Part shown: piece by piece, positions 36,595 through 53,667 of the stretch
Layout of the letters: each line of letters begins with the position of its first letter
Numbering within the stretch: the stretch's first letter is position 1
Assembly (NCBI GenBank): GCA_013823625.1
Contig: PNMM01000002.1
Span: 496,001 to 560,000, forward strand
DNA: 64,000 nucleotides
DNA from: Microbacterium sp.
Lineage (GTDB): Bacteria > Actinomycetota > Actinomycetes > Actinomycetales > Microbacteriaceae
Direction: 5' to 3'
The notes under the pieces: model-generated
What the model was told of the DNA's origin: nothing
Seen by the model: the letters and a program-made list of their open reading frames with translations, nothing else
The model's database searches: none
Made by a program: the position numbers and the translations under genes

Positions 36595-38007
36595 TCAGCC
36601 GCGCGGCTTGTATCTCTGTGGTGGGTATACCTCGGCAACGAGGGCTCGCAACTGCTTGAGCGAACCGCCGAGGCCGAGTGCGCGCGCTTGCACGAGCACG
36701 TTGCCGAGAGCCGTGGCTTCCACGGGGCCGGCGAGCACGGGCATCCCGGAGCGATCGGCGACTAGCTGGCACAAGAGGCTGTTGAGCGCCCCTCCCCCCA
36801 CGAGGTGAATGACCCCAACCTCGCGGTTGGCGAGTCGGGCGGCATCGCGCACCGCATCGGCGAACGCGACGGCCAGGCTCTCGAGAATGCAGCGCGCCAT
36901 CGCGGCGGGCGTAGCCGGCACGGCGTCACCCTGTTCGACGAGTACCGCCGCTATGCGACCGGGCATGTCGCCCGGCGGCAAGAAGCGTTCGTCGTTGGCA
37001 TCGAAGAGGGGCACCGGTGAGCTGACCGCGGCCGCGTCGACGAGTAGCCGGCCCAAGTCGAAGGGGCCCGATTCTGCCTCCCAGGAGCGGATTGTCTCGC
37101 TCAGCAACCACAACCCCATGACGTTGTGCAAGAAGCGCACACGGCCGTCGACGCCACCCTCGTTCGTGAAGTTGGCCTCGCGGCTGGCGTCGGTGATCAC
37201 GGGATGCTCAAGCTCCAGCCCCACGAGCCCCCACGTGCCGCAACTGATGTAGGCCGCGTCGGGCCGCGTCATGGGCACACCCACGACTGCCGAGGCCGTG
37301 TCGTGGGATCCGACGGCCGTGACCCTCACTCCCTCAGGCGCGGCCAGGTCGGCGGCCATCGCGGGCGTCAACGGCCCCCGGTCATCGCCCGGGCGCACGA
37401 GCTCGGGGAAGATGCGGCGCGGCAGCCCCACCCGCGCGATGAGCGCGTCGTTCCACTCGCCCGTGCGCGGGTCGAGCAACCCCGTGGTGGAGGCGTTGGT
37501 CGCCTCAGCGACCGAGCGACCCGTGAGCCAATAAGCGACGAGGTCGGGAATGAGCAAGAACCGCTCGGCAGCGGCGAGCGCGTCGCCCTCGGCCGCGAGC
37601 TGAAACACCGTGTTGAACGGCAAGTGCTGCAGGCCGGAGGCGGCGTAGAGCTCGTCGGGCGGCACCACGGCGTGCACGGCGGCGACGCCGCGAGCCGTGC
37701 GATCGTCGCGGTAGTGAAAGGGGGTGCCGAGCATCCGGTCGCCCGCCATGAGCGCGTAGTCGACCGCCCACGAGTCAATGCCAATGCTCGTGATGAGCGG
37801 GTCTTCGGCGAGCGCCGCGCGCAGCCCCGCGATGATGTGCCCGCGCAGCGCGTCAATATCCCAGTGCAGCCCGCCGGCGCGCTTGACGGGCCCGTTCGGA
37901 AAGCGTGCGACCTCAACGAGGTCAAGCCGATCGAGGCCCACCACGGCGCGCATGACGCGGCCGCTCGTGGCGCCGAGGTCCACCGCGGCAACGTGATACT
38001 CGGTCAC
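36595..38007 (-). CDS. rhaB: Rhamnulokinase
   Basis: A 470-residue FGGY kinase phosphorylating L-rhamnulose to L-rhamnulose 1-phosphate. The N-terminal strand YHVAAVDLGATSGRVMRA is typical of rhamnulokinase. Other landmarks are ITSIGIDSWAVDYALM near residue 75, HYRDDRTARGV, the FQLAAEGDALAAAERFLLIPDLVAYWLTG region, SHDTASAVVGVPM and IHLVGGGALNSLLCQL. Its start shares ATGA with the stop of the aldolase-dehydrogenase gene. It is the last gene of the rhamnose unit read from 41537 leftward. Confidence 0.95.
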   Translation of the reverse strand: MTEYHVAAVDLGATSGRVMRAVVGLDRLDLVEVARFPNGPVKRAGGLHWDIDALRGHIIAGLRAALAEDPLITSIGIDSWAVDYALMAGDRMLGTPFHYRDDRTARGVAAVHAVVPPDELYAASGLQHLPFNTVFQLAAEGDALAAAERFLLIPDLVAYWLTGRSVAEATNASTTGLLDPRTGEWNDALIARVGLPRRIFPELVRPGDDRGPLTPAMAADLAAPEGVRVTAVGSHDTASAVVGVPMTRPDAAYISCGTWGLVGLELEHPVITDASREANFTNEGGVDGRVRFLHNVMGLWLLSETIRSWEAESGPFDLGRLLVDAAAVSSPVPLFDANDERFLPPGDMPGRIAAVLVEQGDAVPATPAAMARCILESLAVAFADAVRDAARLANREVGVIHLVGGGALNSLLCQLVADRSGMPVLAGPVEATALGNVLVQARALGLGGSLKQLRALVAEVYPPQRYKPRG

Positions 38008-40034
38008 CGCAGAAACGCCGCCGCGACACCCGCGTCGACGGGAATGTGCAAGCCGGTCGTGTGCGAGAGGTCGGGGCCCGTGAGCACCGCGACCGCGTTG
38101 GCCACGTGCTCGGGCAGTACCTCGCGCTTGAGAATCGTGCGCTGGGCGTAGAACTTTCCGAGGTCGTCTTCGGCCACGCCGTAGGTTGCGGCGCGGTTGG
38201 CTCCCCAGCCCGAAGCGAAGATGCCCGAGCCGCGTACGACGCCATCGGGGTTGATGCCGTTGACCTTCACGCCGTGCTCGCCGAGCTCGACTGCGAGCAG
38301 TCGAACCTGGTGCGCTTGGTCGGCCTTCGTCGCCGAGTAGGCAATGTTGTTGGGCCCGGCGAACACCGAGTTCTTGCTCGAGATGTAGATGACGTCGCCG
38401 CCCATGCCCTGATCGATGAGCACGCGCGCGGCGACTTTCGACACCAAGAACGACCCCTTAGCCATGACGTCGTGCTGCAGATCCCAGTCGGCCTCGGTCG
38501 TCTCGAGCAGCGGCTTGCTGAGCGACAGCCCCGCGTTGTTGACGACGATGTCGATGCCGCCGAACGCGAGCACCGCATCCTGGATGCCCCGCTCGATCTG
38601 CGCCTGTTCGGTCACGTTGACCTGCACGCCGATCGCGACGTCGGTCGAGCCGAGCTCGGCCGCGGCGGCCTGCGCCTTCGCAAGGTCGAGGTCGGCGATG
38701 ACGACGCACGCACCCTCGGCAGCGAGCCGCGTGGCGATGGCCTTGCCGATGCCGCTCGCCGCACCCGTGACGAAGGCGACGCGGGTCGCGTGACTCTTCG
38801 GCTTCGGCATGCGCTGCAGCTTCGCCTCTTCGAGAGCCCAGTACTCAATGCGGAACTTCTCGGCGTCGCTGATGGGCGTGTAGGTGCTGACCGCCTCGGC
38901 ACCGCGCATGACGTTGATGGCATTGAGGTAGAACTCGCCAGCGACACGGGCGGTCTGCTTGTTCGCGCCGAAGCTGAACATGCCGACGCCAGGCACGAGC
39001 ACGATGAGCGGGTCGGCGCCCCTGATCGCCGGCGAGTCGGCGTCGGCGTGCGCCTTGTAGTACGCCGTGTAGTCGGCGCGGTACTGCTCGTGCAGTTCAC
39101 GCAGCCGCTGGATGCTCGCCTCAACACTCGCGCCCGCCGGCAGGTCGAGCAGCAGCGGCTTGACCTTGGTGCGCAAGAAGTGGTCGGGGCAACTGGTGCC
39201 AAGCTCGGCCAGGGCCGGGGCCTTCGCCGAGGCGATGAAGTCGAGCACCCGCACGTCGTCGCTCAAGTGCCCGACCATGGGGCGGTCATGGCTCGCAATG
39301 CCGCGGATGGTTGGCGCGAGCGCGGCGGCCTTCGCACGGCGCTCCTCGGCCGGCAGTGCCACGAACTTCGCGCGCGGCTTGCCGAACGGCGCCTTCTTGC
39401 CCTTCGCGTCGAGATAGGCCTGCGCGGTGTCGATGATCCAGCGGCTGTTCTTCTCGCACTGTGCGCTCGTGTCGGCCCACGCCGTGATGCCGTGCCCACC
39501 CAGGATGCAGCCGATGGCGGTCGGGTTCGCGGCCTTGATGGCGGCGATGTCGAGCCCGAGCTGGAAGCCGGGACGGCGCCAGGGCACCCACACGACCGTG
39601 TCGCCGAAGATCTTCTTGGTCAGCTTTTCGCCGTCTTTCGCCGTGGCGAGCGCGATTCCCGCGTCGGGGTGCAGGTGGTCCACGTGGGGCGCATCCACGA
39701 GCCCGTGCATGGCGGTGTCGATGCTGGGGGCCGCGCCACCCGTGCCGTGCAGGCAGTAGTCGAAGGCCGTTACCATCTCGTCTTCGCGATCAAGACCCGG
39801 GTAGACGTCGACGAGTGCACGCATGCGGTCCAGGCGCAAGACCGCGAGGCCCCTTTCGGTCAACGTGCCGAGGTCGCCACCCGAGCCTTTGACCCACAGC
39901 AACTCGACCGGCTCGCCCGTAACGGGGTCAGTCGCGGTGCCCTTCGCCGAGGTGTTACCCCCGGCGTAATTGGTGATGTGCGGCTCGGCGCCCAGGCGGT
40001 TGCTGCGGGCAACGAGGTCTGTCATGGCAGTCAT
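38004..40034 (-). CDS. Bifunctional rhamnulose-1-phosphate aldolase / short-chain dehydrogenase
   Basis: A 676-residue fusion (RhaE/RhaEW type). The N-terminal part, residues 1 to about 415, is a class II (zinc) aldolase with NYAGGNTSAKG, DHLHPDAGIALATA (zinc His), CILGGHGITAW and LVPGVGMFSFG. It splits rhamnulose 1-phosphate into DHAP and lactaldehyde. The C-terminal part, from about residue 425, is an SDR with the cofactor loop AFVTGAASGIGKAIATRL, NNAGLS, and the catalytic Tyr-Lys pair in AYSATKADQAH. It is expected to oxidise lactaldehyde, although that activity is assigned by family. It overlaps rhaB by 4 bases and follows rhaM by 4 bases. Confidence 0.93.
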   Translation of the reverse strand: MTAMTDLVARSNRLGAEPHITNYAGGNTSAKGTATDPVTGEPVELLWVKGSGGDLGTLTERGLAVLRLDRMRALVDVYPGLDREDEMVTAFDYCLHGTGGAAPSIDTAMHGLVDAPHVDHLHPDAGIALATAKDGEKLTKKIFGDTVVWVPWRRPGFQLGLDIAAIKAANPTAIGCILGGHGITAWADTSAQCEKNSRWIIDTAQAYLDAKGKKAPFGKPRAKFVALPAEERRAKAAALAPTIRGIASHDRPMVGHLSDDVRVLDFIASAKAPALAELGTSCPDHFLRTKVKPLLLDLPAGASVEASIQRLRELHEQYRADYTAYYKAHADADSPAIRGADPLIVLVPGVGMFSFGANKQTARVAGEFYLNAINVMRGAEAVSTYTPISDAEKFRIEYWALEEAKLQRMPKPKSHATRVAFVTGAASGIGKAIATRLAAEGACVVIADLDLAKAQAAAAELGSTDVAIGVQVNVTEQAQIERGIQDAVLAFGGIDIVVNNAGLSLSKPLLETTEADWDLQHDVMAKGSFLVSKVAARVLIDQGMGGDVIYISSKNSVFAGPNNIAYSATKADQAHQVRLLAVELGEHGVKVNGINPDGVVRGSGIFASGWGANRAATYGVAEDDLGKFYAQRTILKREVLPEHVANAVAVLTGPDLSHTTGLHIPVDAGVAAAFLR

Positions 40035-40038
40035 GGAA

Positions 40039-40383
40039 TCAGGAGCTTTCGAGTTGGTCGGTCATGTTAAACACTTCTGGCAGGTGCCGGGCTGCCTGAT
40101 CGGCCCGACCGTCGAGCGCCACAAAGAAGCGGGCCATCTCGGCCTCCCACTGGGTCGCTGTATCGCTCGCGGCGAGCGATGACTGCGCAACCTCGTCATC
40201 GTCGACCTCGTAGTACCCGAAGAGCGTGCCGTCGGTCTCGTCGAGAAAGAGCGAGTAGTTGTGCCGGCCGCTCGCGGCGATCGCCTCGAGCATCTCGCGA
40301 CGCACGGGTGAGTGCACCGCGCGATACTCGTCAAGCAGCTCGGTGTGCACCTGCACACGGAAGGCGACTCTCACGCGTTCCAT
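40039..40383 (-). CDS. rhaM: L-rhamnose mutarotase
   Basis: A 114-residue protein of the RhaM (DUF718) family that speeds anomer exchange of L-rhamnose. It shows ERVRVAFRVQVHTELLDEYRAVHSPV (His in the active site), the NYSLFLDETDGTLFGYYEV segment and ARFFVALDG near residue 84. The ATG at 40383 overlaps the end of rhaI by 13 bases; a downstream GTG (VRVAF) is an alternative. The short size and position between isomerase and aldolase are typical of the rhamnose cluster. Confidence 0.93.
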   Translation of the reverse strand: MERVRVAFRVQVHTELLDEYRAVHSPVRREMLEAIAASGRHNYSLFLDETDGTLFGYYEVDDDEVAQSSLAASDTATQWEAEMARFFVALDGRADQAARHLPEVFNMTDQLESS

Positions 40384-41537
40384 CCCGCTTGAGTGCCGCC
40401 CACCCGCTCGGCCACGATGCGCTCGTGGTGGCCGCTCGTGGCATAAGCGGTCAGCGGGTCGGCAGGCAGGCCGCGCGACTCGCGCCAGGCGGCGAGGTCG
40501 GGGCGAACATCCGTGTAGAAGGCATTCATCAGGATGCCGTTCGCCGTCAGCACGTCGTTGGCGCGCTGGGCGGCGTCGAGGGCCTCGCGATCGATGAGCA
40601 AGGCCCGCGCCGTCATTTCTTGCACGTTGAGCACGCTGCGGATCTGGCCCGGAATCTTCTCTTCGATGTTGTGGCACTGGTCGAGCATGAAGCCGACATC
40701 GCTGCCCTCGTCATAGCCGCCACCGCGAACCACCTCGACCATGATGCGGAAGAGCTGGAACGGGTCGGCCGCGCCGACGATGAGGTCATCGTCGGCGTAG
40801 AAGCGCGAGTTGAAGTCAAACGAGCCGAGCTTTCCGAGACGCTGCAGCTGCATGACGATGAACTCGATGTTGGTGCCCGGCGCGTGGTGCCCGGTGTCGA
40901 GGCACACCATCGCACGGTCTCCCAACGCGGCGACCTGCGCGTACGCCGTTCCCCAGTCGGGAACATCGGTGTGGTAGAAAGCGGGCTCAAAGAACTTGTA
41001 CTCGAGCACCAGGCGCTGGTCGTCGCCGATGCGCTCATAGATCGTCGCGAGGCTCTCGGCGAGGGCGTCTTGCCGACGCCGCATGTCGTCTTGACCGGGG
41101 TAGTTCGTGCCATCGGCGAGCCAGATCTTGAGGTCGCGCGAGCCCGTCTTGTGCATGATGTCGATGCACTCAAAGTGGTGATCGATCGCGCGCTGGCGGG
41201 CGACCGGATCGCTCGCGGCGAGCGAGCCGAACTTGTACTCCTCGTCTTGGAAGGTGTTGGAGTTGATCGTGCCGAGGGCGACGCCGTGCTCGTCGGCGTG
41301 CGCGCGCAGGGCCGCGTAGTCGTCGACCTTGTCCCACGGGATGTGCAGCGCCACGGTCGGGGCAAGCCCCGTGTGCGCGTGCACCTGGGCCGCATCCGCG
41401 ATCTTCTCGAAGGGGTCGCGCGGCGTGCCAGGCGTGCCGAAGACGCGGAAGCGCGTGCCCGAGTTGCCGAAAGCCCAGGAGGGCAGCTCGATGGCCTGGC
41501 GTCCGAGGTGTGGGGCGATGGAGGCGAAGGTCGTCAT
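40371..41537 (-). CDS. rhaI: L-rhamnose isomerase
   Basis: A 388-residue TIM-barrel isomerase of the RhaI group (Pseudomonas stutzeri-like), converting L-rhamnose to L-rhamnulose. Landmarks are IELPSWAFGNSGTRF, PTVALHIPWDKVDDY, GTINSNTFQDEEYKFGSL, LVLEYKFFEPAFY (metal Glu region), CLDTGHHAPGTNIE and the HHERIVAERVGG end. It is the first gene of the rhaI-rhaM-aldolase-rhaB unit. Its promoter carries two operators for the divergent LacI regulator. Confidence 0.95.
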   Translation of the reverse strand: MTTFASIAPHLGRQAIELPSWAFGNSGTRFRVFGTPGTPRDPFEKIADAAQVHAHTGLAPTVALHIPWDKVDDYAALRAHADEHGVALGTINSNTFQDEEYKFGSLAASDPVARQRAIDHHFECIDIMHKTGSRDLKIWLADGTNYPGQDDMRRRQDALAESLATIYERIGDDQRLVLEYKFFEPAFYHTDVPDWGTAYAQVAALGDRAMVCLDTGHHAPGTNIEFIVMQLQRLGKLGSFDFNSRFYADDDLIVGAADPFQLFRIMVEVVRGGGYDEGSDVGFMLDQCHNIEEKIPGQIRSVLNVQEMTARALLIDREALDAAQRANDVLTANGILMNAFYTDVRPDLAAWRESRGLPADPLTAYATSGHHERIVAERVGGTQAGWNA

Positions 41538-41637: not shown

Positions 41638-42660
41638 ATGGTGACCATGAGCATTAGAGACGTCGCGCGACTGGCTGGCGTCTCGGTCGGCACCGTATCG
41701 AACGTGCTCAATAGGTCCGACCGTGTCAGCGCCGAGACGGCGGCCCGCGTTCGATCGGCGATCGATGAGCTCGGCTTCGTGCCCAATAGCGCTGCTCGTC
41801 AATTGCGAGTCGGGCACAGTTCGACGCTCGGGTTCGTAATGCTTGACATGGGAAACCCCTTCTTCGCCGAAGTCGGCCGCGGTGCCAATGATGCAGCGGC
41901 ACTTGCCGGCCTGTCGGTGCTCCTCGGCGCCAGCGATCAAAACAGCTCGCGAGAAGGCGACTATCTAGATCTCTTCGAAGAGCAACGCGTGCGCGGGGTA
42001 CTCATCTCGCCGATTGGCGACGTCACCCCTCACCTGCGGCGCATCCGGGAGCGCGGAATCGGCTCGGTACTAGTGGACCGCAATGGGACTGGAACGGGTT
42101 TCTCATCGGTCTCCGTTGATGATGTCGCCGGCGGCTACGCCGCAGCGAGGCATTTGCTCGATCAGGGCAGGCGTCGCATCGCCTACCTCGGTGCTCAATT
42201 CGAGATCCAACAGGTCACAGACCGCCTAAAAGGAGCTCGCCGGGCAATTGCCGACGTTGGTGGTGCTACTTTCGAGGTGATCTCCGCCCGCGGGCTCACG
42301 GTTTCCGACGGCCGCGACGTCGGCAAGAGCCTGGGCAAGAGAGCCGTGCGAAGTTGGCCCGACGCGATCTTCGCGTCCAATGATCTCCTCGCCATTGGGC
42401 TAGTGCAGGCGCTCATCTTGACGGGAACGGCGCGGGTGCCTGACGACATAGCGATCGTGGGCTACGACGACAATGAGTTCGCATCGGCTGCGATCATTCC
42501 CCTGACCACTGTGCGTCAACCCAGCCGACTGCTGGGAACGACCGCTGTGCAGATCCTTCTCGAGGAAGCGGCGGACTCCAAGCTTGAACCGCGAAATGTG
42601 CAATTCCAGCCACAACTGGTCGTTCGCCAGACAAGCATGGTGGAGTCCGGTGCCTCCTGA
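41638..42660 (+). CDS. LacI-family repressor of the rhamnose operon
   Basis: A 340-residue LacI protein. The HTH reads SIRDVARLAGVSVGTVSNVLNRSD near residue 5-30, and the sugar-sensing domain begins STLGFVMLDMGNPFFAEV. It contains GASDQNSSREGDYLDLFEEQRVRG and ends with VVRQTSM. It is divergent from rhaI across a 100-bp region with two TGAAtCGnTTCa-type sites. The ATG at 41638 is 6 bases past TAGCCT, so the mRNA should be leaderless. The inferred inducer is L-rhamnose or L-rhamnulose, from position only. Confidence 0.88.
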   Translation: MVTMSIRDVARLAGVSVGTVSNVLNRSDRVSAETAARVRSAIDELGFVPNSAARQLRVGHSSTLGFVMLDMGNPFFAEVGRGANDAAALAGLSVLLGASDQNSSREGDYLDLFEEQRVRGVLISPIGDVTPHLRRIRERGIGSVLVDRNGTGTGFSSVSVDDVAGGYAAARHLLDQGRRRIAYLGAQFEIQQVTDRLKGARRAIADVGGATFEVISARGLTVSDGRDVGKSLGKRAVRSWPDAIFASNDLLAIGLVQALILTGTARVPDDIAIVGYDDNEFASAAIIPLTTVRQPSRLLGTTAVQILLEEAADSKLEPRNVQFQPQLVVRQTSMVESGAS

Positions 42661-42679
42661 AGATTAGTCCGCGCCGGGA

Positions 42680-42712
42680 GTGGGCTGCGCCGCTGATGCC
42701 GACACAGCCCAC
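42680..42712. terminator. Hairpin between convergent genes, possible bidirectional terminator
   Basis: An 8-bp stem (arms 42680-42687 and 42705-42712, GTGGGCTG) with a 17-base loop between the stops of the LacI gene and the FG-GAP protein gene. No good T run follows on either strand, so the call is tentative. Confidence 0.4.
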
Positions 42713-42720
42713 CCATCGGC

Positions 42721-45210
42721 TCATTGATAGATGACGTTCATGTCCCACTCGGTGGTGTCGTGAGCGGAGGTCGAGTTCGCAGCGGTAACGAACTGGACAC
42801 GGTCGCCGGCGCACAGAGTCAAAGCAAACCGGAAGGGAACCGCCGACACGCTTGACAGCGCGTGTGACCCTCCGCCGCTCGGCCAGACCTGTGTACCGTT
42901 TCGCATGATCCGGACCAGGACGCCGTCACCTCCCGCTTGGAGTTTCTCCGCACGGCCCGTGACGATCACGTTTCCGGCCCGGGGCGCGACAAAGGTTCTC
43001 ACCGATTCTGCGCCGACGTCCGGATGCTGCCAGCTGGAAGCCGATTGAGCCCAGGTTGATGTCCCTTGCCACCGCGACGACCCAAGGCTCCAATTCATCG
43101 GGGCGATGGTGCGCACCCCGCCGGGATAGGTCCACTGTTCATAGTGCCATCCACCTGATCCCTGCGTACTTGAGAACGAACGCCGCGCGTTGAAACTGTC
43201 GGCAGGGTACTTGAACTGCCGAACGTAGTCGCGCGTCATGTTCCAGAACACGTCGTCTTGGATCTCGCCCGCGGCGTTGTACCACCGCTCCCACGTGCCA
43301 GGCACGAGAAGGCTCGTGTCTGCGACCTCCGTCGCTGTACCCTCTGCGAACTCGTTGAAGGAGTTGATGATTACCGTATTTGTGCGAGGCGATCGGTCCA
43401 GGATCACATCCCAGACCTTCTTGGAGTAGTAGTTGGTGTTGTCACGCAAGACTGGAGGGTATCCAGGCACTTGGTTTGACCACCCCGGCATCGCGACCAT
43501 CGCGCGATCATCGCTAACGGTTCCGGACTGTGGAAGCTGCCATCCATACTCCCCTGGGAGGGCAACCCACGCAAAGCGAACCGTGAAGTTGTTGGTTGCT
43601 GACTTATCGCCACCGTATGCCATCCATGCGTCCTGGTTGGCCTTGGTGGTGTACACAACCAAGAGAGGTTTGCCGTTGACGTGGTAATTGAGCGCAGGAC
43701 CACCGTAAGCGGGATTGTTAGTGAACTCATCCCATACCTGACGGGCCTCCTGCTCGATGGTCTGTGGATCGTTCGTCCATTGAACACGACCGACAGCAAT
43801 TGCGTACTTGAGGTCGCGATTAGCGGGATTCTGGTTCCAGGTTGCCATCCGAGATGCGACAGTCGCGGCGCGATTGAGGATCGCCCCACCGACATTGTTC
43901 AGTCCGTTGGTTTCGTCCAACAACAGAAAGTCGATATGAGCACTCGAAATTTCAGAGAAATGCTCGTCGATAACCGCTGCGTCTCCACTGTCGTATTGCT
44001 GATATGCCCCAAGAACATGGGGTCGGTAGTTGATTGGCGGCTTCCCAGGAAATCCAGCCCACGTATTGACCGAAACCGAGTCCGCTGCAAGGTACCGTTC
44101 GACTTTCCAGGTGCCGCCGTTGAGGTTCGGGTAGAAAGCTATCGAGTCCCTCCAGTTGTAGGCGTCTCCACTCACACGTGCCTGAAAGACACTTGCAGCG
44201 CCAGCACCGAATCCGGAGTGCACGAGATAGTCGCCCTGCGGGTCTATCGAACGCAACGCCCGGTCATAGTGACGCGTGACGGTGTCACCCGGCTTGCCGT
44301 CGGCTGGTATAACCCCACCGATTGCCATGTCTCCGCTGAAGAAGACGTAGGGCTCTGCGAATCCATCGCCGTTGCCGTCTGCTACGTATTGACGAACCGA
44401 GCCGACTCCGTGGCCGGTCGTCCATAAGGTTGAGTCGCCGAAGGCGTTGCCTCCGGACATCGCTGCGTACCAACTGCCGTCAGCGGCGGTGTAATAAATT
44501 GCATCCAGCCGCCCATCCGCATTGGCATCGTCGATGAACTGTTCTGTAGAACCTGAACCGAATTGAGTGCGCCACGTTGTAACGGTGCCAAAACTGGTTC
44601 CCATTGACGGGGTCACAGCCCAATGGCCCCCCAGATCTGGCGTGAAGAAGCTCACAAGGTCCGCGCGTCCGTCTCCGGTAACGTCACCCACGAAACGCTT
44701 ATCAGCGTTGCTGCCAGACCCAGACTTCCAAAGTTGATACGGCGCAAACGCTTGGCCCGTGGAATTCGCTACGTACCAGTCCCCAGCGAGCGAGTCTCCG
44801 GAGATATCCGTATTGAAGAACGCGATCGCGTCCGCTCGCCCGTCTCCACTGACGTCGGCAAGGAACTGCTCGTCTGAGCCGACGCCGTGGCCACTTACCC
44901 ACGTCTGGACCGCCCCAAAGGCAGACCCCGTTGAGCGCGCAACTTGCCACGCACCCGCCCCATAAGTGACGGCGTCCCCGTATCCATCACCGTCAACGTC
45001 GGCTACAAACTGTTTGGTGCTCGCAGCCCCGAAACCAGACTTCCACTCTAGGTTTACCATCTGGCGCTTTGAGTACCAGGTCGAATACCAAATTCCGACG
45101 TCCCCCGCGGTCTCCGCGGCCGCCGGCGGACTTGGCATCGGGCTCAATACCGAACCAGCGACGATTGCCGCCGATGCGGCAACTGCAACCAGTGAACGTC
45201 TCACTTTCAT
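42721..45210 (-). CDS. Secreted FG-GAP repeat protein with GH99/GH71-like catalytic domain
   Basis: An 829-residue exported protein. The signal peptide (residues 1 to about 32) ends at APAAAETA-like sequence. A GIWYSTWY strand follows at 39-46. Then come about six FG-GAP/VCBS-like repeats (roughly 50-380), with calcium-loop-type motifs DVDGDGYGD 71-79, DVSGDGRAD 119-127, DVTGDGRAD 176-184, DANADGRLD 228-236 and DGNGDGFAE 278-286. The rest looks like a GH99/GH71/WbsX-type barrel (about 395-660): YDSGD, IDFLLLDETNGL 426-437, and NSFNEFAEGT 616-625. A beta-sandwich domain, possibly carbohydrate binding, ends the protein. The start has GGAGAAACC upstream. Specific glycan activity is inferred from position in the rhamnoside island. 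Confidence 0.75.
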   Translation of the reverse strand: MKVRRSLVAVAASAAIVAGSVLSPMPSPPAAAETAGDVGIWYSTWYSKRQMVNLEWKSGFGAASTKQFVADVDGDGYGDAVTYGAGAWQVARSTGSAFGAVQTWVSGHGVGSDEQFLADVSGDGRADAIAFFNTDISGDSLAGDWYVANSTGQAFAPYQLWKSGSGSNADKRFVGDVTGDGRADLVSFFTPDLGGHWAVTPSMGTSFGTVTTWRTQFGSGSTEQFIDDANADGRLDAIYYTAADGSWYAAMSGGNAFGDSTLWTTGHGVGSVRQYVADGNGDGFAEPYVFFSGDMAIGGVIPADGKPGDTVTRHYDRALRSIDPQGDYLVHSGFGAGAASVFQARVSGDAYNWRDSIAFYPNLNGGTWKVERYLAADSVSVNTWAGFPGKPPINYRPHVLGAYQQYDSGDAAVIDEHFSEISSAHIDFLLLDETNGLNNVGGAILNRAATVASRMATWNQNPANRDLKYAIAVGRVQWTNDPQTIEQEARQVWDEFTNNPAYGGPALNYHVNGKPLLVVYTTKANQDAWMAYGGDKSATNNFTVRFAWVALPGEYGWQLPQSGTVSDDRAMVAMPGWSNQVPGYPPVLRDNTNYYSKKVWDVILDRSPRTNTVIINSFNEFAEGTATEVADTSLLVPGTWERWYNAAGEIQDDVFWNMTRDYVRQFKYPADSFNARRSFSSTQGSGGWHYEQWTYPGGVRTIAPMNWSLGSSRWQGTSTWAQSASSWQHPDVGAESVRTFVAPRAGNVIVTGRAEKLQAGGDGVLVRIMRNGTQVWPSGGGSHALSSVSAVPFRFALTLCAGDRVQFVTAANSTSAHDTTEWDMNVIYQ

Positions 45211-45233
45211 GGTTTCTCCTCAGGAAGCACTTC

Positions 45234-45250
45234 ATTGGGACTTTCCCAAT
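45234..45250. promoter_or_regulatory. Perfect inverted repeat upstream of the FG-GAP/GH protein
   Basis: ATTGGGA-CTT-TCCCAAT, a perfect 7-bp palindrome with a 3-base centre, lies 24 bases upstream of the start codon at 45210. It may be an operator in the 153-bp gap between this gene and the GH127-like gene. No regulator is assigned. Confidence 0.5.
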
Positions 45251-45363
45251 CCGAGTAAACAATGCTCGAGCCCGCGGGCGTTCCGATCTGCCAGTCTTGT
45301 GCTAGAAATGACGAATTTTGTCCTGATCTCGAGCTGTCATCATGAGGATTGGACGCCTTTGTG

Positions 45364-46875
45364 CTATTCCTGCAAAGGTGGTGACGCAAGGTTTACGCTC
45401 TCTGGACCGTCCGCTCCGTGTGCGCCGGTCACGCTGGCCAACGAGGCGACGCGAGGGCCGGGCGGTGTCTCTACCAGAACCTCAAGGACCGGACCTCTCC
45501 GGCTGAGCGTGATGCCGTCGATGTGTTCCGTCGTAATCGGAAAGCTCCACGCCATAGCAGCGGAACTCCCAGGGAACGGTTCGAGCTGTATTGCCGCTGC
45601 CGAGTCTTCGATTGAGATCTCGACACTGAGCGGCGATGCGCCAAGTGGGGCCGACACAGTCTCCAGAGTGATTGATGCCGGTGACCACAGACTCACCCGC
45701 TGCGCGATCTGCCACTCTCCTGCTTCTGTGGTGATCCAATGCCAACCGGGGTAGAGATCTGAGATCACAAAGACGGATTCTTCGAGTCGCGCCGAGGTCT
45801 CGCGAGCTTCGAGCAGACCGAGGGCGCCGCGCATCGTGCAACACCAATGTGCGTCGTGCGTGAGTGCTCGAAGTGTCGGCGACTCTGGCGTGGCAATACT
45901 GTCGAGCCCGAAGCTTCCGTCAGCTCGCTCCGCGTATTCGAGACCGTTTCGGGCAATGCGCGTCGCATCTCGTCGAAAACTCTCATCCCCCGTCAATTGG
46001 TAGAGGGCTGTAGCGGCACCGAGGGAGTCGACGATAGCGCAGGGCTCCGTCCAGGAATCCGCTCGCCCAAACCAGTTGAACGTCGCATGGTTGAGTGTTC
46101 GACCTGCGCGGACATAGTCACGATAGAGCGACTCGGCAACAGCAGCCGCGCGCGGGTGTCCGGTCGCTTGCGCCCAGTCGCCGAAGTTTCGGCACGCAGC
46201 GAGGACCGCGTGGAGTTGCGCCCCTGCAGACACGACATCCAGGGATGCTGCTTTTTCGACGAAGTCGTTGATCATGGAGGCGAGATCCGCACGCCTCGTC
46301 TCCAGGGCCGCCGGCACTAGCCCGTTGAGCGTGAGAAGTACGCACCAGACGTCGGTCGATAGCGTCCAACCATCGACTTCCTCCACCGACGTGCCCGATG
46401 GCCCGCCCGCATCCGTACTTCGCACCGCCGACCACGGGTACTCGGTTTTCAACAGCGCAGGCACTACAAGTTCGTCGATAACTCTCAGCGCGGCGGTTCT
46501 CGAGCGAACGTCACCGGTCACGTAGAAGTACTGCAGCAGACCCGAGACAACCCATCCATGGCACGCGACCTGCTGCTCATCAATGACCTCACCAAGGGGC
46601 TCCCCAAGGTAGCCACGTGCCTCGAGCGCGTCGAGCAGTCCCGCGTTCAGCTCCTCGGCGCGAGCTCGGGTCGGCAATCCAGCTCGCGCGAATCTGCTGA
46701 GCGACAGGAGAAGCCTCCCGGCCAAGTCTCCGGGCCACGGATCGGTCACCGTGCGAGCAATGACCTCTGATGGGTCGTAGTCGTTACGCAGAAGTCGCTC
46801 CACCGAGGCGCTAAGCCTCTCATCTGCACTCAGGTCAGGTTCAAACAGGCAAGGTTCAGGCCTTACGTCGGTCAC
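45364..46875 (-). CDS. Putative GH127-like (alpha/alpha)6-barrel glycoside hydrolase
   Basis: A 503-residue cytoplasmic protein with no signal peptide. It has a helical first half with repeated VSGLLQYFYVTGD-like elements, characteristic of (alpha/alpha)6 barrels. A Cys-Cys pair in HDAHWCCTMRG (about residues 340-350) recalls the DUF1680/GH127 zinc/cysteine site. A beta domain follows (LEVLVETPPG). The resemblance is weak and the family call tentative; a polysaccharide lyase or an unrelated barrel is possible. Its start overlaps the GH78 stop by 4 bases and it lies in the rhamnoside operon, so it probably works on the same substrate. Confidence 0.55.
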   Translation of the reverse strand: MTDVRPEPCLFEPDLSADERLSASVERLLRNDYDPSEVIARTVTDPWPGDLAGRLLLSLSRFARAGLPTRARAEELNAGLLDALEARGYLGEPLGEVIDEQQVACHGWVVSGLLQYFYVTGDVRSRTAALRVIDELVVPALLKTEYPWSAVRSTDAGGPSGTSVEEVDGWTLSTDVWCVLLTLNGLVPAALETRRADLASMINDFVEKAASLDVVSAGAQLHAVLAACRNFGDWAQATGHPRAAAVAESLYRDYVRAGRTLNHATFNWFGRADSWTEPCAIVDSLGAATALYQLTGDESFRRDATRIARNGLEYAERADGSFGLDSIATPESPTLRALTHDAHWCCTMRGALGLLEARETSARLEESVFVISDLYPGWHWITTEAGEWQIAQRVSLWSPASITLETVSAPLGASPLSVEISIEDSAAAIQLEPFPGSSAAMAWSFPITTEHIDGITLSRRGPVLEVLVETPPGPRVASLASVTGAHGADGPESVNLASPPLQE

Positions 46876-49424
46876 CCGTCTCTCCTCACTTCGATCGGCT
46901 GCTCGCGGTGGACACGGGCGTGGCTGTGGAAGATGTGATTGCCAGACCCCACCATCACCGGGAGTTCACCCGGGAGGAGGATCTCGGCGGCCCCCTCAAG
47001 TGGAACGTCGACAACGATTTCGACTCGCCCGTCGTCGGACCGGCACCACCTAGTCGCGTAAGTGCCGCGCGGTGAGGAATGTCGAGTCGATGCTGAGGCC
47101 ACGTCATGCAGAAAGACGGGTTCTACTACCGCAGTTGCCCACCCGATTGAATCTCCTCTTTGGCGAAGCCCTGCTACACGACCCTGCAGCCAGTGGTCAA
47201 TCATTCCCAGCATGAAGTGATTGTGAGAGCCTTCTCCGACCTCTAGCCTCTGGGCCGACCACGTTTCCGCAAGGGCGGTCACACCTCGAGCAAGCTGCAT
47301 ACCGTAACCGGGGACATCTGTGCGCGTGATGATTCTGTAGACGAGATCAGCCATGTCATGCTGTGTGAGGGCGTCAACCAGCTCTTCGAACGTCACCTCG
47401 CCCACAGTGAAGCGCCATCCGTCTTGCTCAATGCGGGCGACCAGCCTGCGAAGAAACTCCTTGGCGCTTGCATCATCACCTCGCCGCTCAGCGAGCGACA
47501 TCCTGATGGTCAGTTCTGACTGCGACGCCGACGGTGAAAATGTCAACTGCTCGATAGCAGCCAAGACCCTGTTCCGCCGCTGGAGCGTGTGACTTGCCCA
47601 GGTTGAATCTCCCATGATTCCCGCTATTTCCTGGGCAGCCTCAAGCAAGCGGACATAGCCGAACGACGCCACCAATACGCGGGGTGTCGAGACATCGAGT
47701 GCAATCCAGTCACCCAATCCGACATCGATCAGACAGTTGGATTCGATATCGCTGAGGTGTCGGAGGTACGCCTTCATTGCAGGGAGGTTGTCCTCCAGTA
47801 CGCGTCGGTCTCCGTACTGGCGATAGTGCTTCAGAGGTAGGTGAAGGATCGCAGATCCCCAATTAACATCAAACCGGAACGCGTCGGGGTCCCCTTCATA
47901 CGCGTGCCCTGTGAAATCGACGAACTCAGGGGCGATATTTGGGATGGCTCCATTCGGAAGCTGCGCCCGGCGTATGTGGTGAAGTGAGTCGCGGAGGTGA
48001 GCTTCGCAGTCGAAGTTCCGAACGAGCAAGTCGAAACAGAGATACAGCTGCTCGATCCAGCCGAGCTTCTCACGATGAGGGCAGTCCGTGAAGACGCTGA
48101 ACATATTGCCCTGCACCGCGCGGACACTCACGTCGTGCAGTGCCGCGAGAAACGCGTCCGAGCTCGTGAACTCCCCGACGCTTGCGTTCGACGCACGAAC
48201 CACCATTGCCTTCACGCCGACGTCATCCGCACCCTGAAGTTCGACGTATCGGAATCCGTGATACGTGAATCGAGGGTGCCAATCTCCACTCGTCGCTGGT
48301 GGAATCACCAGGCTGTCGTAGATGGGGCTACCCGTGCTGTCTTGATCGACTCCAATGGGCGTCGCTTGTTCGGCCGGAAGCAAACGCACCTGGCGTTCAT
48401 GCGGGCTCGAGCTCCAATGAACGAGTGGCCAGCCGGCAATGTTGGTGCCAAAGTCGATGAGCCGGCCCGCCGGCACGGTCACCGCACGCGTCTCGTCAAG
48501 TACGTCAACGACGCGCAAGGGCGGATACTCAGGCCACCAAATCTCTGGGGGACTCCAGGGCGCCCGGGCCGCGGGCAGGGAATCGATTTCAGACCAAGGC
48601 TCGGGCAATCTAGCGTCGAAGTCCTCCCCGCCGTACCAGTGCGTCAGCACGGTCGCTCCCCGTCCACACTGGGTCTCCCCGGCCGACGTGAGCGAGATTC
48701 GAGATGACTCTCCCAGTTGCTCGAGAATCGCGATCAGGGCGAGCGGTCGGCTCTCCGCCGTGAACTTCGCGTATCGATCAGCGTTTGGCGGCAGCCAATA
48801 TGGTCCTGATGCGATCTCAATGGTGAGCGTGTGCGCGCCCTCCGCCAAGGAGCCGAGGTCGTAGGTCGATGCGGCTACTTCAGTCACAAGATCGCTGTAG
48901 CCGGGGCCGAGCAGGCGGTCGGTAAGTTCGCGTCCATCGACCCGTAGCTCGACGACGCCAGACGCGGCGAGATGCACAAGCGTTCTCGTGTCGGACGTCT
49001 GACTGTGGAACGGCATCGCGAACCAGACCGATCCTGCACGATGATCTGAGCCCGGCGCCGCAAGTTCAGGATGGGTGATCCATTCGGCGCCTGAAGACTC
49101 CAGGTCCGGCGCAACAGTGAACCGGCTGACCTCACTCCAGGTCGTCTGGTCCCCTCGACGTGCTCCAACGGCCCAGTACACGGTCCGCCATGGGGGCGTA
49201 CTGACGGTGATCTCCCTCGAAGAGGGCGGTAGTTCAACCGTCAGATTCTCACGCTCGTCACCTCCGGACACGGACCGACGTTGGGGGCCGAGAGAGACAA
49301 TGATTTGATCACTCGATCCCGCGCCGTCGTCGCCGGCGTGCCACGTCAAGCGAGTCCGACGACTGGCCACCGACAGCGGATCGTGCAAGCCGTTCGCGCG
49401 AAGTGTAGTAAAGGGTGCGTACAT
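46872..49424 (-). CDS. Alpha-L-rhamnosidase, glycoside hydrolase family 78
   Basis: An 850-residue GH78-type enzyme that would remove terminal alpha-L-rhamnose. It has two N-terminal beta domains (residues 1 to about 320), then the (alpha/alpha)6 catalytic domain. The GH78 hallmark lies near residues 440-455 (TDCPHREKLGWIEQ), followed by helices with CFDLLVRNF and GDWIALDVS. There is no signal peptide, so it is likely to act on imported rhamnosides. The start follows a hairpin after the binding-protein gene. It sits between the ABC importer genes and the GH127-like gene, consistent with a single transcription unit. Confidence 0.9.
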   Translation of the reverse strand: MYAPFTTLRANGLHDPLSVASRRTRLTWHAGDDGAGSSDQIIVSLGPQRRSVSGGDERENLTVELPPSSREITVSTPPWRTVYWAVGARRGDQTTWSEVSRFTVAPDLESSGAEWITHPELAAPGSDHRAGSVWFAMPFHSQTSDTRTLVHLAASGVVELRVDGRELTDRLLGPGYSDLVTEVAASTYDLGSLAEGAHTLTIEIASGPYWLPPNADRYAKFTAESRPLALIAILEQLGESSRISLTSAGETQCGRGATVLTHWYGGEDFDARLPEPWSEIDSLPAARAPWSPPEIWWPEYPPLRVVDVLDETRAVTVPAGRLIDFGTNIAGWPLVHWSSSPHERQVRLLPAEQATPIGVDQDSTGSPIYDSLVIPPATSGDWHPRFTYHGFRYVELQGADDVGVKAMVVRASNASVGEFTSSDAFLAALHDVSVRAVQGNMFSVFTDCPHREKLGWIEQLYLCFDLLVRNFDCEAHLRDSLHHIRRAQLPNGAIPNIAPEFVDFTGHAYEGDPDAFRFDVNWGSAILHLPLKHYRQYGDRRVLEDNLPAMKAYLRHLSDIESNCLIDVGLGDWIALDVSTPRVLVASFGYVRLLEAAQEIAGIMGDSTWASHTLQRRNRVLAAIEQLTFSPSASQSELTIRMSLAERRGDDASAKEFLRRLVARIEQDGWRFTVGEVTFEELVDALTQHDMADLVYRIITRTDVPGYGMQLARGVTALAETWSAQRLEVGEGSHNHFMLGMIDHWLQGRVAGLRQRGDSIGWATAVVEPVFLHDVASASTRHSSPRGTYATRWCRSDDGRVEIVVDVPLEGAAEILLPGELPVMVGSGNHIFHSHARVHREQPIEVRRDG

Positions 49425-49497
49425 TTGTCCCGATCACTGTGAAGGGCGCACCCAGCGAGCTGCCCGATAGACGAAGAGTGGTCACGCCGAAAAGGTG

Positions 49498-49529
49498 GGG
49501 TGGCGGACCGCTGCAACGGCCCGCCACCC
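49498..49529 (-). terminator. Strong hairpin after the binding-protein gene
   Basis: On the minus strand a 13-bp stem (one G-T wobble; arms 49498-49510 and 49517-49529) with a 6-base loop lies between the binding-protein stop and the GH78 gene. CCTTTT follows a few bases later. It may attenuate transcription into the downstream glycosidases or protect the binding-protein mRNA. Confidence 0.7.
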
Positions 49530-49536
49530 GTTTCAT

Positions 49537-50796
49537 CTACTGCGCTTGCCGATCTGCCTCGAAGGCCGCGTCCAGCTTCTCCGCCGCAGAGCCAGGCGTG
49601 TCGCTGCCCAGCAGGATCGACTGAGACACCTCATTGAGTGCGTCCTGCGTCTTACTGCCCAGCCAGCCCTGGTCGGGCCACGGCCCGGTCTTGCCGGAGC
49701 TCACGAAGCCGAGAACAACCAGCTGGTTCGGGCTGTCAGCCTCGAACGAGTCGTTCGGCAGCGAGGGGGCCCCCTTCGCGGCCGTCGCGTACGCGTTCTG
49801 CGCTTCCGCGGTTGCCAGGAAGTCGATGAACAGACGCGCGTTGTCCTGGTTCTCCGACGCCGCATTGATGCCGAACCCGGACGAGTCAGCGACTGCCATG
49901 TAGTTGTCGCCCGAATCGTCCGTCGGGAAGGCAGCGATGCTGAAGCTGGCTCCCTCCTCGGCCAATGACTCGATGTACGAGGTGTCGGAGAACGCGAACG
50001 TCGCGAGCGCGCTTCCGCCGATCAACTGTTCGAACGCCACGTTGAAGTCCGTACCGGTCGGCCCTTCGTTGAAGCAGCCGGCCTCGCTCATCTCCTGCTG
50101 AATCTCGAAAGCGCGCTCCCATCCGGAGCCCGCGAACGTCTCGTTGCCGGCGATCTGCTCGGAGGTGAAGGCGGGGTTTGGTCCGTAGACAAGCGAGGCC
50201 ACCATCGCATAAGTGGGAACGGCGCTGCCACCCTGAAGGAACAGCGAGTACGCAGCGATGCCCGCGGCCTTCGCATCCGCGCACAGCTCGAGCACCTCAG
50301 AGTAGGTCTCCGGAATCGAGAGTCCAAGTTCGGCCAGAGTGTCGTCGTTGTAGACCGGACCAAGACCAAGCGCGCCGATCGGGACGGACACCAGCTTGCC
50401 GTCGTTCGCAAACAGGTTGCTCTGCGTTTGCGAGAGCTCCCCGGCCCAGGTGGCGTCAGAGAGGTCGACAAGCTGGCCCGCCTCATCGAGCTGAACAACG
50501 CCCAGAGCGTTACCGGCACCCGGGAAGGTGCGAATCACGTCCGCCGCAGTCCCCGCGGCCAGTGCTGTGCGAATGAACGTCGGGTAGTCGGACCCGCCGT
50601 CGACGATTTCGACGTCGATGTCCGGGTACTCAGTCTCGAACGCGGCGACAGCCGCCTCGAGGGGAGCAATGTTGTCGGTAGCAACCGTGAGGGTTCCCTC
50701 CGCTGCCGGCTCTTCTGTCGCGGTCGAACAACCGCTCAGGACAAGGGCGGTGAGCGCGATTCCGCTCGCCGCCACCATTGCACTACGTCGTGACAT
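49537..50796 (-). CDS. Rhamnoside ABC transporter binding lipoprotein
   Basis: A 419-residue family 1 solute-binding protein. Signal and lipobox: a basic start, ALTALVLSGC with Cys23 lipidated. The mature part has GTLTVATDNIAPLEAAVAAFETEYPDIDVEIV and a GPVYNDDTLAELGL segment, then the WPDQGWLGSKTQDAL segment near the C-terminus. It is third in the ABC unit with the two permeases upstream at 50843 and 51670. The inferred ligand, a rhamnose-containing oligosaccharide, follows from the neighbouring GH78 gene and the AraC regulator, not from the sequence. Confidence 0.88.
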   Translation of the reverse strand: MSRRSAMVAASGIALTALVLSGCSTATEEPAAEGTLTVATDNIAPLEAAVAAFETEYPDIDVEIVDGGSDYPTFIRTALAAGTAADVIRTFPGAGNALGVVQLDEAGQLVDLSDATWAGELSQTQSNLFANDGKLVSVPIGALGLGPVYNDDTLAELGLSIPETYSEVLELCADAKAAGIAAYSLFLQGGSAVPTYAMVASLVYGPNPAFTSEQIAGNETFAGSGWERAFEIQQEMSEAGCFNEGPTGTDFNVAFEQLIGGSALATFAFSDTSYIESLAEEGASFSIAAFPTDDSGDNYMAVADSSGFGINAASENQDNARLFIDFLATAEAQNAYATAAKGAPSLPNDSFEADSPNQLVVLGFVSSGKTGPWPDQGWLGSKTQDALNEVSQSILLGSDTPGSAAEKLDAAFEADRQAQ

Positions 50797-50842
50797 GGGT
50801 GTACCTCTTCTCTTGATGGGGTGGGTGGGATGGCTGAGAGAT

Positions 50843-51667
50843 TCAGCCCTTCAAGCCGCCTGCAAAGCCTTGAATGATGTACTTCTGCAGGGCGAAGTAG
50901 GCGACGAGAATCGGTGCCGCAGAGATGACGAGGGCTGCGAACACGGCCGGCCAGTCTGCGGTGTAGGTGCGAACGAATCCGCTGATGCGGACCGGAAGGG
51001 TTTCATTGCCAGTTCCAGAAAGAAACAGCAGCGGCACGAAGAAGCTGTTCCAGATCGAGATCCCAGCCAAGATGGCGACCGTGCCGAGAGCCGGCCGCAT
51101 GAGCGGAACCACGATGTACCAGAAGATCCGAATCGGGCCGCATCCGTCGAGCGCGGCGGCATCTTCGAAGTCGAGGGGGCTCTCGCGGAGAAACATTGTG
51201 ATCACGAAGACCGCGAACGGGATCGAATGACCGGCGCCGACGAGGATGACCGCCAGAATGCTTCCGTTTAGTCCAATGTCCCGCATGCTGATAAAGAGCG
51301 GTAGTACTCCCAACTGCAAAGGGATCACGAGCCCCAACATGAAGACGTAGAACAAGCCCCTCGACCACCCGGCCGTGATGCGCGCCAGCATGTACGACGC
51401 AAGCGACGCAACGAGAAGAACAATGAGGACGCTGGCGACCAGGACCACGATGCTGTTAACCAGAGCAGGGCCGAGCTTGCCGTCAACCCACGCCCTCGCG
51501 AAGTTCTCGAGACTGTACTCGCCTTCTATCGTGAGAGCGCCCGTGGAGTTGCGGGGTGCCTTCAATGCAAGGTTGACGAGTGCAAACAGCGGGACGACGA
51601 ACGCGGCCGCTGCGATCCAGAGTGTTACTTCCAAGACGAAGGTTCGGCCCGTGTATCGGTTGATCAC
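50843..51667 (-). CDS. ABC transporter permease, MalG type
   Basis: A 274-residue sugar permease with about six helices. Visible elements are LWIAAAAFVVPLFALVNLAL, the LVASLASYMLARI segment, FYVFMLGLVIPLQLGVLPLFI, the coupling loop PLDFEDAAALDGCGPIRIF and a C-terminal tail ending IIQGFAGGLKG. It follows the MalF-type gene by 2 bases. Together they form the channel of the rhamnoside importer. No ATPase gene is nearby. Confidence 0.93.
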   Translation of the reverse strand: MINRYTGRTFVLEVTLWIAAAAFVVPLFALVNLALKAPRNSTGALTIEGEYSLENFARAWVDGKLGPALVNSIVVLVASVLIVLLVASLASYMLARITAGWSRGLFYVFMLGLVIPLQLGVLPLFISMRDIGLNGSILAVILVGAGHSIPFAVFVITMFLRESPLDFEDAAALDGCGPIRIFWYIVVPLMRPALGTVAILAGISIWNSFFVPLLFLSGTGNETLPVRISGFVRTYTADWPAVFAALVISAAPILVAYFALQKYIIQGFAGGLKG

Positions 51668-51669
51668 GA

Positions 51670-52605
51670 CTAGTCCTTCCTCGCCGCAGTTCGGTACTGA
51701 ATAGTTGCCAGCGAAGCGACAACCACTGCCATGACGGTCGCGAGCGCCGTCGCGTATGGCAGGTCTCCACCCTGGAAACCGACCTTGAACACCACGGTCG
51801 AAATGGTCTCTGTTGCTCGAAGGGGCCCGCCCTCGGTCATTGCGTAGACCTGATCGAACTGGCCCATTCCGTTGATCAACGTGAGCACGAGCGTGATCAC
51901 GACGGCACCGTTGATGAGGGGAAACACGATGGAGACGAATCGCCGTACCGGTCCGGCACCGTCAATGATCGCGGCCTCGATAACCTCGGAGGGAAGGGCC
52001 TTGAGCCCGGCCAGGTAGATCACCATCGAGAAGCCGGTGAATTGCCACAAGTAAGCAACCGACACCGCCCCGAGGGCAAACTGCGGATCGCCCAGCCAAT
52101 TCTGTCGGAGAGCGTCGAGCCCGACGCTCGTGAGGAATGTGTTCACGGCACCCGTCGGTGCGAGCAGGTAGCTCCAGATGTATCCGCAGACTAGGGGCGT
52201 GAGCACGACCGGTGCGAAGAAGATGGTTTGCAGCACACCGGAAGACTTGATGACCGTGTTCAAGGCAAGCGCGAGAACGAGGCCCAGGGCGTTCTGCAGA
52301 ATCATCGTGATGAGCGCGAACGTGAAAGTGTTGCCGAGTGCCGCAAGTGCGAGCGGGTCGGTGAAGATCCGGACATAGTTCTCGAAACCAACAAGGTTGA
52401 AGTCCTCGCTGAAGCCGTTCCAGTCCGAAAATCCGTACAGACCACCTCGCGCCGACGGAACAAGAGTGACGAATCCGTACACGGCCAGCGCGGGGAGTAC
52501 GAACCAGAACGGCACACGCCGAGTTGTGAAACCACGACCCGGCCGAGCTGAAACCTTTCTCGCGCGCTGCCAGACAGCGGGAGAGATCGTCAGTGATCGC
52601 GACAT
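51670..52605 (-). CDS. ABC transporter permease, MalF type
   Basis: A 311-residue sugar permease. After a basic head come about six helices, starting PFWFVLPALAVYGFVTLVPS. The conserved loop LPSEVIEAAIIDGAGPVRRF sits before a membrane segment, with the GQFDQVYAMTEGGP periplasmic segment later. It is the first gene of the importer unit, downstream of the AraC-controlled intergenic region. The ATG at 52605 has GGAG about 8-12 bases upstream. Confidence 0.93.
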   Translation of the reverse strand: MSRSLTISPAVWQRARKVSARPGRGFTTRRVPFWFVLPALAVYGFVTLVPSARGGLYGFSDWNGFSEDFNLVGFENYVRIFTDPLALAALGNTFTFALITMILQNALGLVLALALNTVIKSSGVLQTIFFAPVVLTPLVCGYIWSYLLAPTGAVNTFLTSVGLDALRQNWLGDPQFALGAVSVAYLWQFTGFSMVIYLAGLKALPSEVIEAAIIDGAGPVRRFVSIVFPLINGAVVITLVLTLINGMGQFDQVYAMTEGGPLRATETISTVVFKVGFQGGDLPYATALATVMAVVVASLATIQYRTAARKD

Positions 52606-52683
52606 GCTTACTCGGCTCCGTTTTCAACACCCGGGATGGAGAGGGGGTTTGCTAAGCATGCGCCGACTCTGCGGAGAGCCAAA

Positions 52684-52717
52684 AGCACGATTATCCGAAG
52701 TGATAGCACGATTCTCC
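52684..52717. promoter_or_regulatory. AraC-type direct repeats
   Basis: AGCACGATTATCC (52684-52696) is repeated as AGCACGATTCTCC (52705-52717) with one difference. The repeats are offset by 21 bases, two helical turns, so both face the same side of DNA. This is the typical layout of AraC-family binding half-sites. It lies in the 165-bp region shared by the importer operon and the araC-like gene. Confidence 0.7.
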
Positions 52718-52770
52718 CCGATGTAGCGGCGTATTCTTGCGACGCTGGCAAAGTATTGAGGGTGACCACC

Positions 52771-53610: not shown

Positions 53611-53667
53611 GAAAGAAAGGCGAGGCTGCACCTCGGCCGAGCGCCAACGAAGTTCAGTCTCGTGTAC

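Follow-up and report, generated by a model that had tools for sequence, protein, structure and literature searches.

Our analyses of a window of DNA from Microbacterium sp. (viz. the whole stretch of 64,000 nucleotides analysed) point to a secreted protein with a nested architecture, in which a propeller is quite probably inserted after the first strand of a glycoside hydrolase barrel, in its beta1-alpha1 loop. The protein is encoded by an intact ORF of 829 amino acids (aa), along which a signal peptide is followed by the motif GIWYSTWY, an FG-GAP propeller, the remainder of a GH99/GH71-like barrel and a C-terminal module (Table 1). GIWYSTWY is found at residues 39–46, YDSGD at residues 406–410, IDFLLLDETNGL at residues 426–437 and NSFNEFAEGT at residues 616–625; an earlier note on this DNA had reported GIWYSTWY, the FG-GAP repeats, YDSGD and NSFNEFAEGT, and all of these are present in the ORF as it described them.

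Table 1. Parts of the propeller-glycosidase gene and neighboring genes, with positions in the window
Feature	Position	Strand	Basis
L-rhamnose catabolism: rhaI, aldolase/dehydrogenase fusion, FGGY kinase	36595..41537	-	NCBIfam
LacI-family regulator	41638..42660	+	Pfam/NCBIfam
Secreted propeller-glycosidase, whole gene, 829 aa	42721..45210	-	ORF and translation
C-terminal module, residues 668–829, also in other secreted-looking proteins	42724..43209	-	Genome searches
GH99/GH71-like barrel remainder, residues 403–667	43210..44004	-	Pfam, profiles, alignment
E620-F-A-E623, predicted catalytic pair E-x-x-E	43342..43353	-	Invariant in 3 members; aligned with GH99 NEWHE, including PDB 4acy
Residues 374–402, proposed rest of beta1-alpha1 loop	44005..44091	-	Profile and MAFFT alignment
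FG-GAP/VCBS-type propeller, residues 51–373	44092..45060	-	Pfam; AlphaFold strands; Foldseek
GIWYSTWY, residues 39–46, proposed beta1 of barrel	45073..45096	-	Conservation, matrix, alignment, profile, segregation
Signal peptide, approximately residues 1–32	45115..45210	-	Judged by eye
alpha-L-rhamnosidase (Bac_rhamnosid)	46872..49424	-	Pfam
ABC transporter, sugar-type: solute-binding protein and two permeases	49537..52605	-	Pfam/NCBIfam

The Pfam family FG-GAP_3 matches the 829 aa protein at 30.4 bits (cut-off 26.9), the calcium-loop motif D-x-x-x-D-G is found in five of the six repeats, and the protein qualifies for Pfam PF13517. The Pfam family GH99 matches the whole protein at 25.1 bits over residues 589–667, under its cut-off of 33, and no GH71 family is among the Pfam matches at E 0.1, nor is there any NCBIfam match at that threshold. 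The only PDB sequences matched by the protein are four of PVL-type lectins, all of them in the propeller, and the barrel alone has no PDB match at E 1. The C-terminal module (~160 aa) has no Pfam match. Among 299 genomes of the family it recurs in 4, within secreted-looking proteins and as a tandem pair in two, and among 396 genomes from the phylum one gave a partial match, in a 3040 aa frame.

Relatives were sought with residues 391–669 alone, a query blind to both GIWYSTWY and the propeller, in the collection genome_contigs, which by the description of the tool holds one genome per species for 84,980 species; the search was seeded with six peptide patterns, so that distant relatives may escape it. 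Two of the 13 candidate stretches encode relatives, both from Bacteroidota, viz. a Cytophagales MAG (L013, 42%) and a Paludibacteraceae MAG (L014, 40%). Both ORFs carry a signal peptide (judged by eye), an identical GIWYSTWY, FG-GAP repeats and a barrel with TYQQYDSGD, and they end with PKD and a C-terminal sorting domain; the order GIWYSTWY, propeller, barrel is thereby shared by all three family members found. Among Bacteroidota-side genomes, matches occurred in 2 of 395, 1 of 178 and 1 of 148, each count including the starting genome, and the sole addition was the genome G736, from the phylum of L013, whose protein (L045:1686-4496 (+)) matches at E 2.7e-10. Its FG-GAP propeller and GH99-like barrel, the latter with the motif NEWSE, stand in tandem and GIWYSTWY is absent; the barrel is probably self-contained, and the protein is a possible un-nested counterpart of the nested one. 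On the Microbacterium side, sets of 60, 299 and 396 genomes were drawn, the organism's own being part of each (the last set was searched with residues 391–829). No other genome in them gave a full-length or barrel match; six more of the 299 and one of the 396 matched, but solely in the C-terminal module or the propeller. No relative was found in viral_contigs or among phages, and the plasmid records gave seven matches to the whole protein, all in the propeller, and none to the barrel. The nested family is rare in the genomes searched.

The motif GIWYSTWY is invariant in all eight of its columns in the alignment of the three members, compared with none of the four ungapped columns before it and none of the seven columns of the linker after it; invariant columns make up 191/579 overall, 83/277 in the propeller and 96/256 in the barrel. 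A run of eight invariant columns arose somewhere in 942/20000 permutations, so that the run by itself is modest evidence and the weight rests on the place of GIWYSTWY and its likeness to the GH99 first strand. A matrix of this strand, built from seven GH99 proteins, has its best place at GIWYSTWY in every member, scoring 18.5 bits in the Microbacterium protein (VGIWYSTWYS; 0/1000 shuffles as high), 10.0 bits in L013 (47/1000) and 10.4 bits in L014 (81/1000).

A wider comparison employed 15 GH99-like proteins from 19 loci (L015–L033), four of which (viz. L028, L030, L031, and L033) were dropped because the script's pattern did not detect the first-strand motif and the glutamate pair together in them. 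When the barrels alone were aligned with these proteins by MAFFT, the FYYP columns, which form the first-strand core, remained empty in 3/3 members, the tryptophan following the propeller fell on the GH99 loop tryptophan, and two linker residues, SY in L013 and GY in L014, took up the motif's WY columns. W384 and PP391–392 of the Microbacterium protein align with the GH99 loop W-x-H-W ... PP. In rows from which only the propeller was removed, IWYSTWY occupies the FYYPWY columns in 3/3, a placement that is weaker evidence and partly forced because the motif was set at the front. Rejoining the strand to the barrel of the Microbacterium protein raised its score from 23.6 to 31.8 bits (+8.2) against a seven-sequence profile (0/200 decoys and 0/200 shuffles as high) and from 43.8 to 46.4 bits (+2.6) against a 15-sequence profile (0/300 decoys, 3/300 shuffles). 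The same step brought little gain for L014 (25.7 to 25.9 bits, with 42/200 decoys and 95/200 shuffles as high; 43.1 to 43.9 bits, with 5/300 and 8/300) and none for L013 (26.9 to 26.8 bits, 6/200 decoys and 103/200 shuffles; 48.5 to 47.4 bits, 300/300 and 286/300), nor did the Pfam GH99 score of the Microbacterium protein without its propeller gain from the strand (29.3 bits for the barrel alone, 28.6 rejoined). The placement of the strand is consistent in all three sequences, and the scores are convincing for the Microbacterium protein only.

Structures were predicted with AlphaFold in two runs of three rows each, one on the alignment of the Microbacterium protein and one with trimmed L014 on top, giving a mean pLDDT of 45.5 and 57.8, respectively. 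In both runs the propeller was modeled well, and the barrel and residues 37–48 were placed at low confidence. The Microbacterium propeller is confident over approximately residues 54–298 (ten-residue means mostly 66–93), falls below 50 at residues 299–328 and 348–352, and reaches 62–75 across most of the last blade; ten-residue means over the L014 propeller are 76–94. Values below 50 cover residues 1–53 and nearly all of 373–829 in the Microbacterium protein, and residues 1–19 and most of 307–597 in trimmed L014. Helices and strands alternate within the low-confidence barrel region, as a barrel would give, and neither model has a strand at GIWYSTWY, where, as in most of the barrel and the N-terminus, pLDDT is mostly below 50.

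This missing strand agrees with an unlikely alternative, in which the propeller is simply N-terminal to a self-contained barrel in tandem, beta1 is supplied by the segment after the propeller (SVSVNTW, residues 378–384, in the Microbacterium protein and LLLNLWDAW in L014), and GIWYSTWY is a conserved tail with another job. The segment is hydrophobic and includes the invariant residues N382 and W384, the protein of G736 shows just such an order with no N-terminal motif, and L013 derives no benefit from the addition of GIWYSTWY. However, the barrel-only alignment assigns the segment to the loop tryptophan, with the FYYP columns unfilled in every member, the barrel-only profile path of the Microbacterium protein begins after beta1 (at profile position 31), AlphaFold places no strand in the segment either, at low confidence, and a mere tail would hardly be conserved in 8/8 columns and resemble FYYPWY. 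The nested reading, with GIWYSTWY packing in the barrel as beta1, is therefore the one that we prefer on the comparisons of sequence.

In the barrel, NSFNEFAEG aligns with TSFNEWHEG of GH99, so that E620 and E623 lie opposite NEWHE, and a profile–profile comparison aligned only residues 572–631, around this pair (probability 60.3 and 80.1). The E-x-x-E pair of GH99 is kept after the last strand, and the WH/WG between its glutamates is not. According to PMC11025385, human MANEA has E404 and E407 as its catalytic residues, which lie within EW[H/G]E and are identical to those of bacterial GH99; PMC12394665 describes a D/E-x-x-E pair shared by GH71 and GH99, whose mechanisms differ. Two further motifs, SWWG and HxEPY, which are invariant in 7/7 GH99 rows, are missing from the Microbacterium protein, where LLLDETN and YAIAVG stand instead; hence its sugar site differs and the specificity of GH99 cannot be transferred to it. 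Their loss, together with the Pfam GH99 score under the cut-off, would also suit a catalytically dead barrel serving for sugar binding or as a scaffold, whatever the nesting, a reading that we hold to be unlikely; both glutamates are nevertheless invariant in all three members and have a counterpart in NEWSE of G736, and the gene adjoins the rhamnosidase and transporter region.

The strand lists of both models open with a single strand (residues 51–58 in the Microbacterium protein), continue with five groups of four strands and close with a group of three (residues 340–373). These lists, rather than distances, suggest a six-bladed propeller whose last blade would be completed by strand 51–58; seven blades were considered and set aside, as the strand count gives six. 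Foldseek gave propeller proteins as its leading matches: PVL-type lectins with the first model and, with the L014 model, a chain of the Streptomyces griseus UmbA4 complex, KICSTOR chains and PLL/PHL lectins. In PVL and tachylectin, according to PMC8023676, sugar pockets are tied to the GW motif; this motif is absent from residues 51–373, so that sugar binding by the propeller is not predicted by way of it.

Propellers that lack the barrel allow the association of GIWYSTWY to be followed. The gene next to the nested one in L014 (L014:6349-9135 (+)) encodes a propeller that shows 59.5% identity across 296 aa and begins at the closing strand, with no GIWYSTWY and no match to the GH99 profile; since so similar a propeller has neither barrel nor motif, the motif goes with the barrel. 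This neighbor is perhaps a copy of the propeller turned to another use. A search of 332 ORFs of at least 200 aa in the loci, with two propellers as queries and with overlapping loci counted more than once, yielded eight distinct barrel-less propeller proteins (viz. the L014 neighbor, L004, the protein of L008/L011/L012, and L051–L055), five of which came from five of the seven plasmid records (H1 and H3–H6; H2 and H7 were left out). GIWYSTWY occurs in none of the eight in the parts covered, several of the ORFs running off the end of their stretch, and the 15-sequence GH99-like profile scores them at no more than 0.6 bits or leaves them unlisted, compared with 34.2 bits for the 829 aa protein. 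That GIWYSTWY belongs to the propeller, as an extra edge strand or cap, is very improbable: its position directly before the first propeller strand would suit this, but the similar propeller next door in L014 and the other barrel-less propellers lack it in the parts covered, and the strand count is complete in its absence. The proposal of the earlier note that the propeller is nested in the barrel is thus likely from the sequences, being upheld by the shared order in three of three members, the absence of the motif from the similar barrel-less propeller next door in L014 and the empty first-strand core columns, whereas AlphaFold, in leaving the barrel and residues 37–48 below confidence, gave it no backing.

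Under the preferred nested arrangement, the catalytic domain of this secreted glycoside hydrolase would be a (beta/alpha)8 barrel of GH99/GH71 type; GIWYSTWY, as the mature chain's first element, would form its strand one, the whole FG-GAP/VCBS propeller would follow immediately, and the chain would then return to complete the barrel. Such an insertion would be geometrically easy because the two ends of the propeller would form one hairpin, if strand 51–58 joins blade 340–373. GH71 and GH99 differ most in a beta1-alpha1 region of ~50 residues, which AnGH71C lacks and which in GH99 curls around the cleft on one side, as set out in PMC12394665; the propeller is therefore expected next to the cleft, where it may act as a built-in, substrate-binding wall, with cleavage by E620 and E623 as the predicted pair.

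Glycosidases usually carry their binding modules in a row along the chain, like beads on a string. A closed propeller plugged into the loop that builds the cleft would, if the architecture is real, join binding and cutting in one rigid unit, and the barrel would tolerate an insertion of its own size directly behind beta1. Among the open-access literature matches listed, no paper deals with a GH99/GH71 barrel that has a propeller nested in it.

The genes of the rhamnose island named in the earlier note are present, in that rhaI (TIGR02635, 628.8 bits versus a cut-off of 531.35), an aldolase/dehydrogenase fusion, a kinase, a rhamnosidase and a transporter are all encoded nearby. The rhamnosidase is one which we take to belong to the CAZy family GH78. 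On the same strand, the ABC transporter is followed by the rhamnosidase, a 503 aa protein and the propeller-glycosidase gene. The uncharacterized 503 aa protein (45364-46875), for which searches of Pfam, NCBIfam and PDB sequences gave no match, is perhaps another glycoside hydrolase. A 335 aa ORF (52624-53631) at the head of the presumed operon, likewise with no Pfam or NCBIfam match, has the lowest GC3 measured (0.60). Third-position GC is 0.60–0.80 in the eight genes that run from the LacI regulator up to this ORF (41638-53631) and 0.82–0.89 in the six others measured, and 25 genomes drawn from the same genus, some of them incomplete, contain no match to the rhamnosidase at E 1e-50; the propeller enzyme has none at E 1e-5 in the same-genus genomes drawn, again some incomplete. 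This region is likely an acquired island for glycan use. Among plasmid records, one rhamnose gene of the window has its best match in Frondihabitans (77.5%), with six more actinobacterial records behind it, and the ATP-grasp gene has its best in Tsukamurella (62.7%), matches that suit a source in Actinomycetota. No rhamnose genes were seen by eye in the ORF lists around L013 and L014, so the link to rhamnose comes from the Microbacterium locus alone.

Within this locus, the propeller enzyme is a candidate to begin rhamnoside use outside the cell: it would cut a rhamnose-containing glycan, presumably in an endo fashion, and the resulting oligosaccharides would be taken up by the ABC transporter, trimmed by the rhamnosidase and degraded by the Rha enzymes. 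That its substrate is a rhamnose-containing glycan is a real possibility, although we put it at somewhat under even; sugar binding or wall attachment by the propeller, and a rhamnan or rhamnogalacturonan as the glycan, are inferences of the earlier note that we would retain as such. More tentative still is the broader suggestion of a new glycoside hydrolase family, found in an Actinomycetota lineage and in Bacteroidota, in which the propeller replaces the cleft-wall loop of GH99 and reads the polymer, so that a rhamnose glycan is cleaved by a nested lectin-enzyme.

Several known systems resemble the protein in part. The VCBS/FG-GAP propellers (PF13517; the PVL lectin 2bwm, the Agrocybe lectin 4tqm, and PLL/PHL) are of the same repeat family and are matched by Foldseek; unlike the PVL-type lectins, which have seven blades and GW, the Microbacterium propeller has six by strand count, lacks GW and is apparently nested in another domain. 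The protein of G736 combines an FG-GAP propeller with a GH99-like barrel bearing NEWSE and differs in its tandem order and in the absence of GIWYSTWY. GH71, as represented by AnGH71C, has a related barrel and a D/E-x-x-E pair, a likeness drawn from the published description only, but it lacks the beta1-alpha1 region altogether by that account (PMC12394665), whereas the Microbacterium protein has its propeller there. GH99 (PF16317; endo-alpha-1,2-mannosidase/mannanase; PDB 4acy, 4ad1, 6zdc) shares the order of barrel elements, the aromatic beta1 motif, Y-x-S-x-D before alpha1 and NE-x-x-E after the last strand. The Microbacterium protein departs from it in scoring below the Pfam cut-off and in carrying a propeller of ~320 residues in place of a loop given as ~50 residues in that account (PMC12394665), and whereas FYYPWY of GH99 is contiguous with its barrel, IWYSTWY sits ~355 residues before YQQYDSGD.
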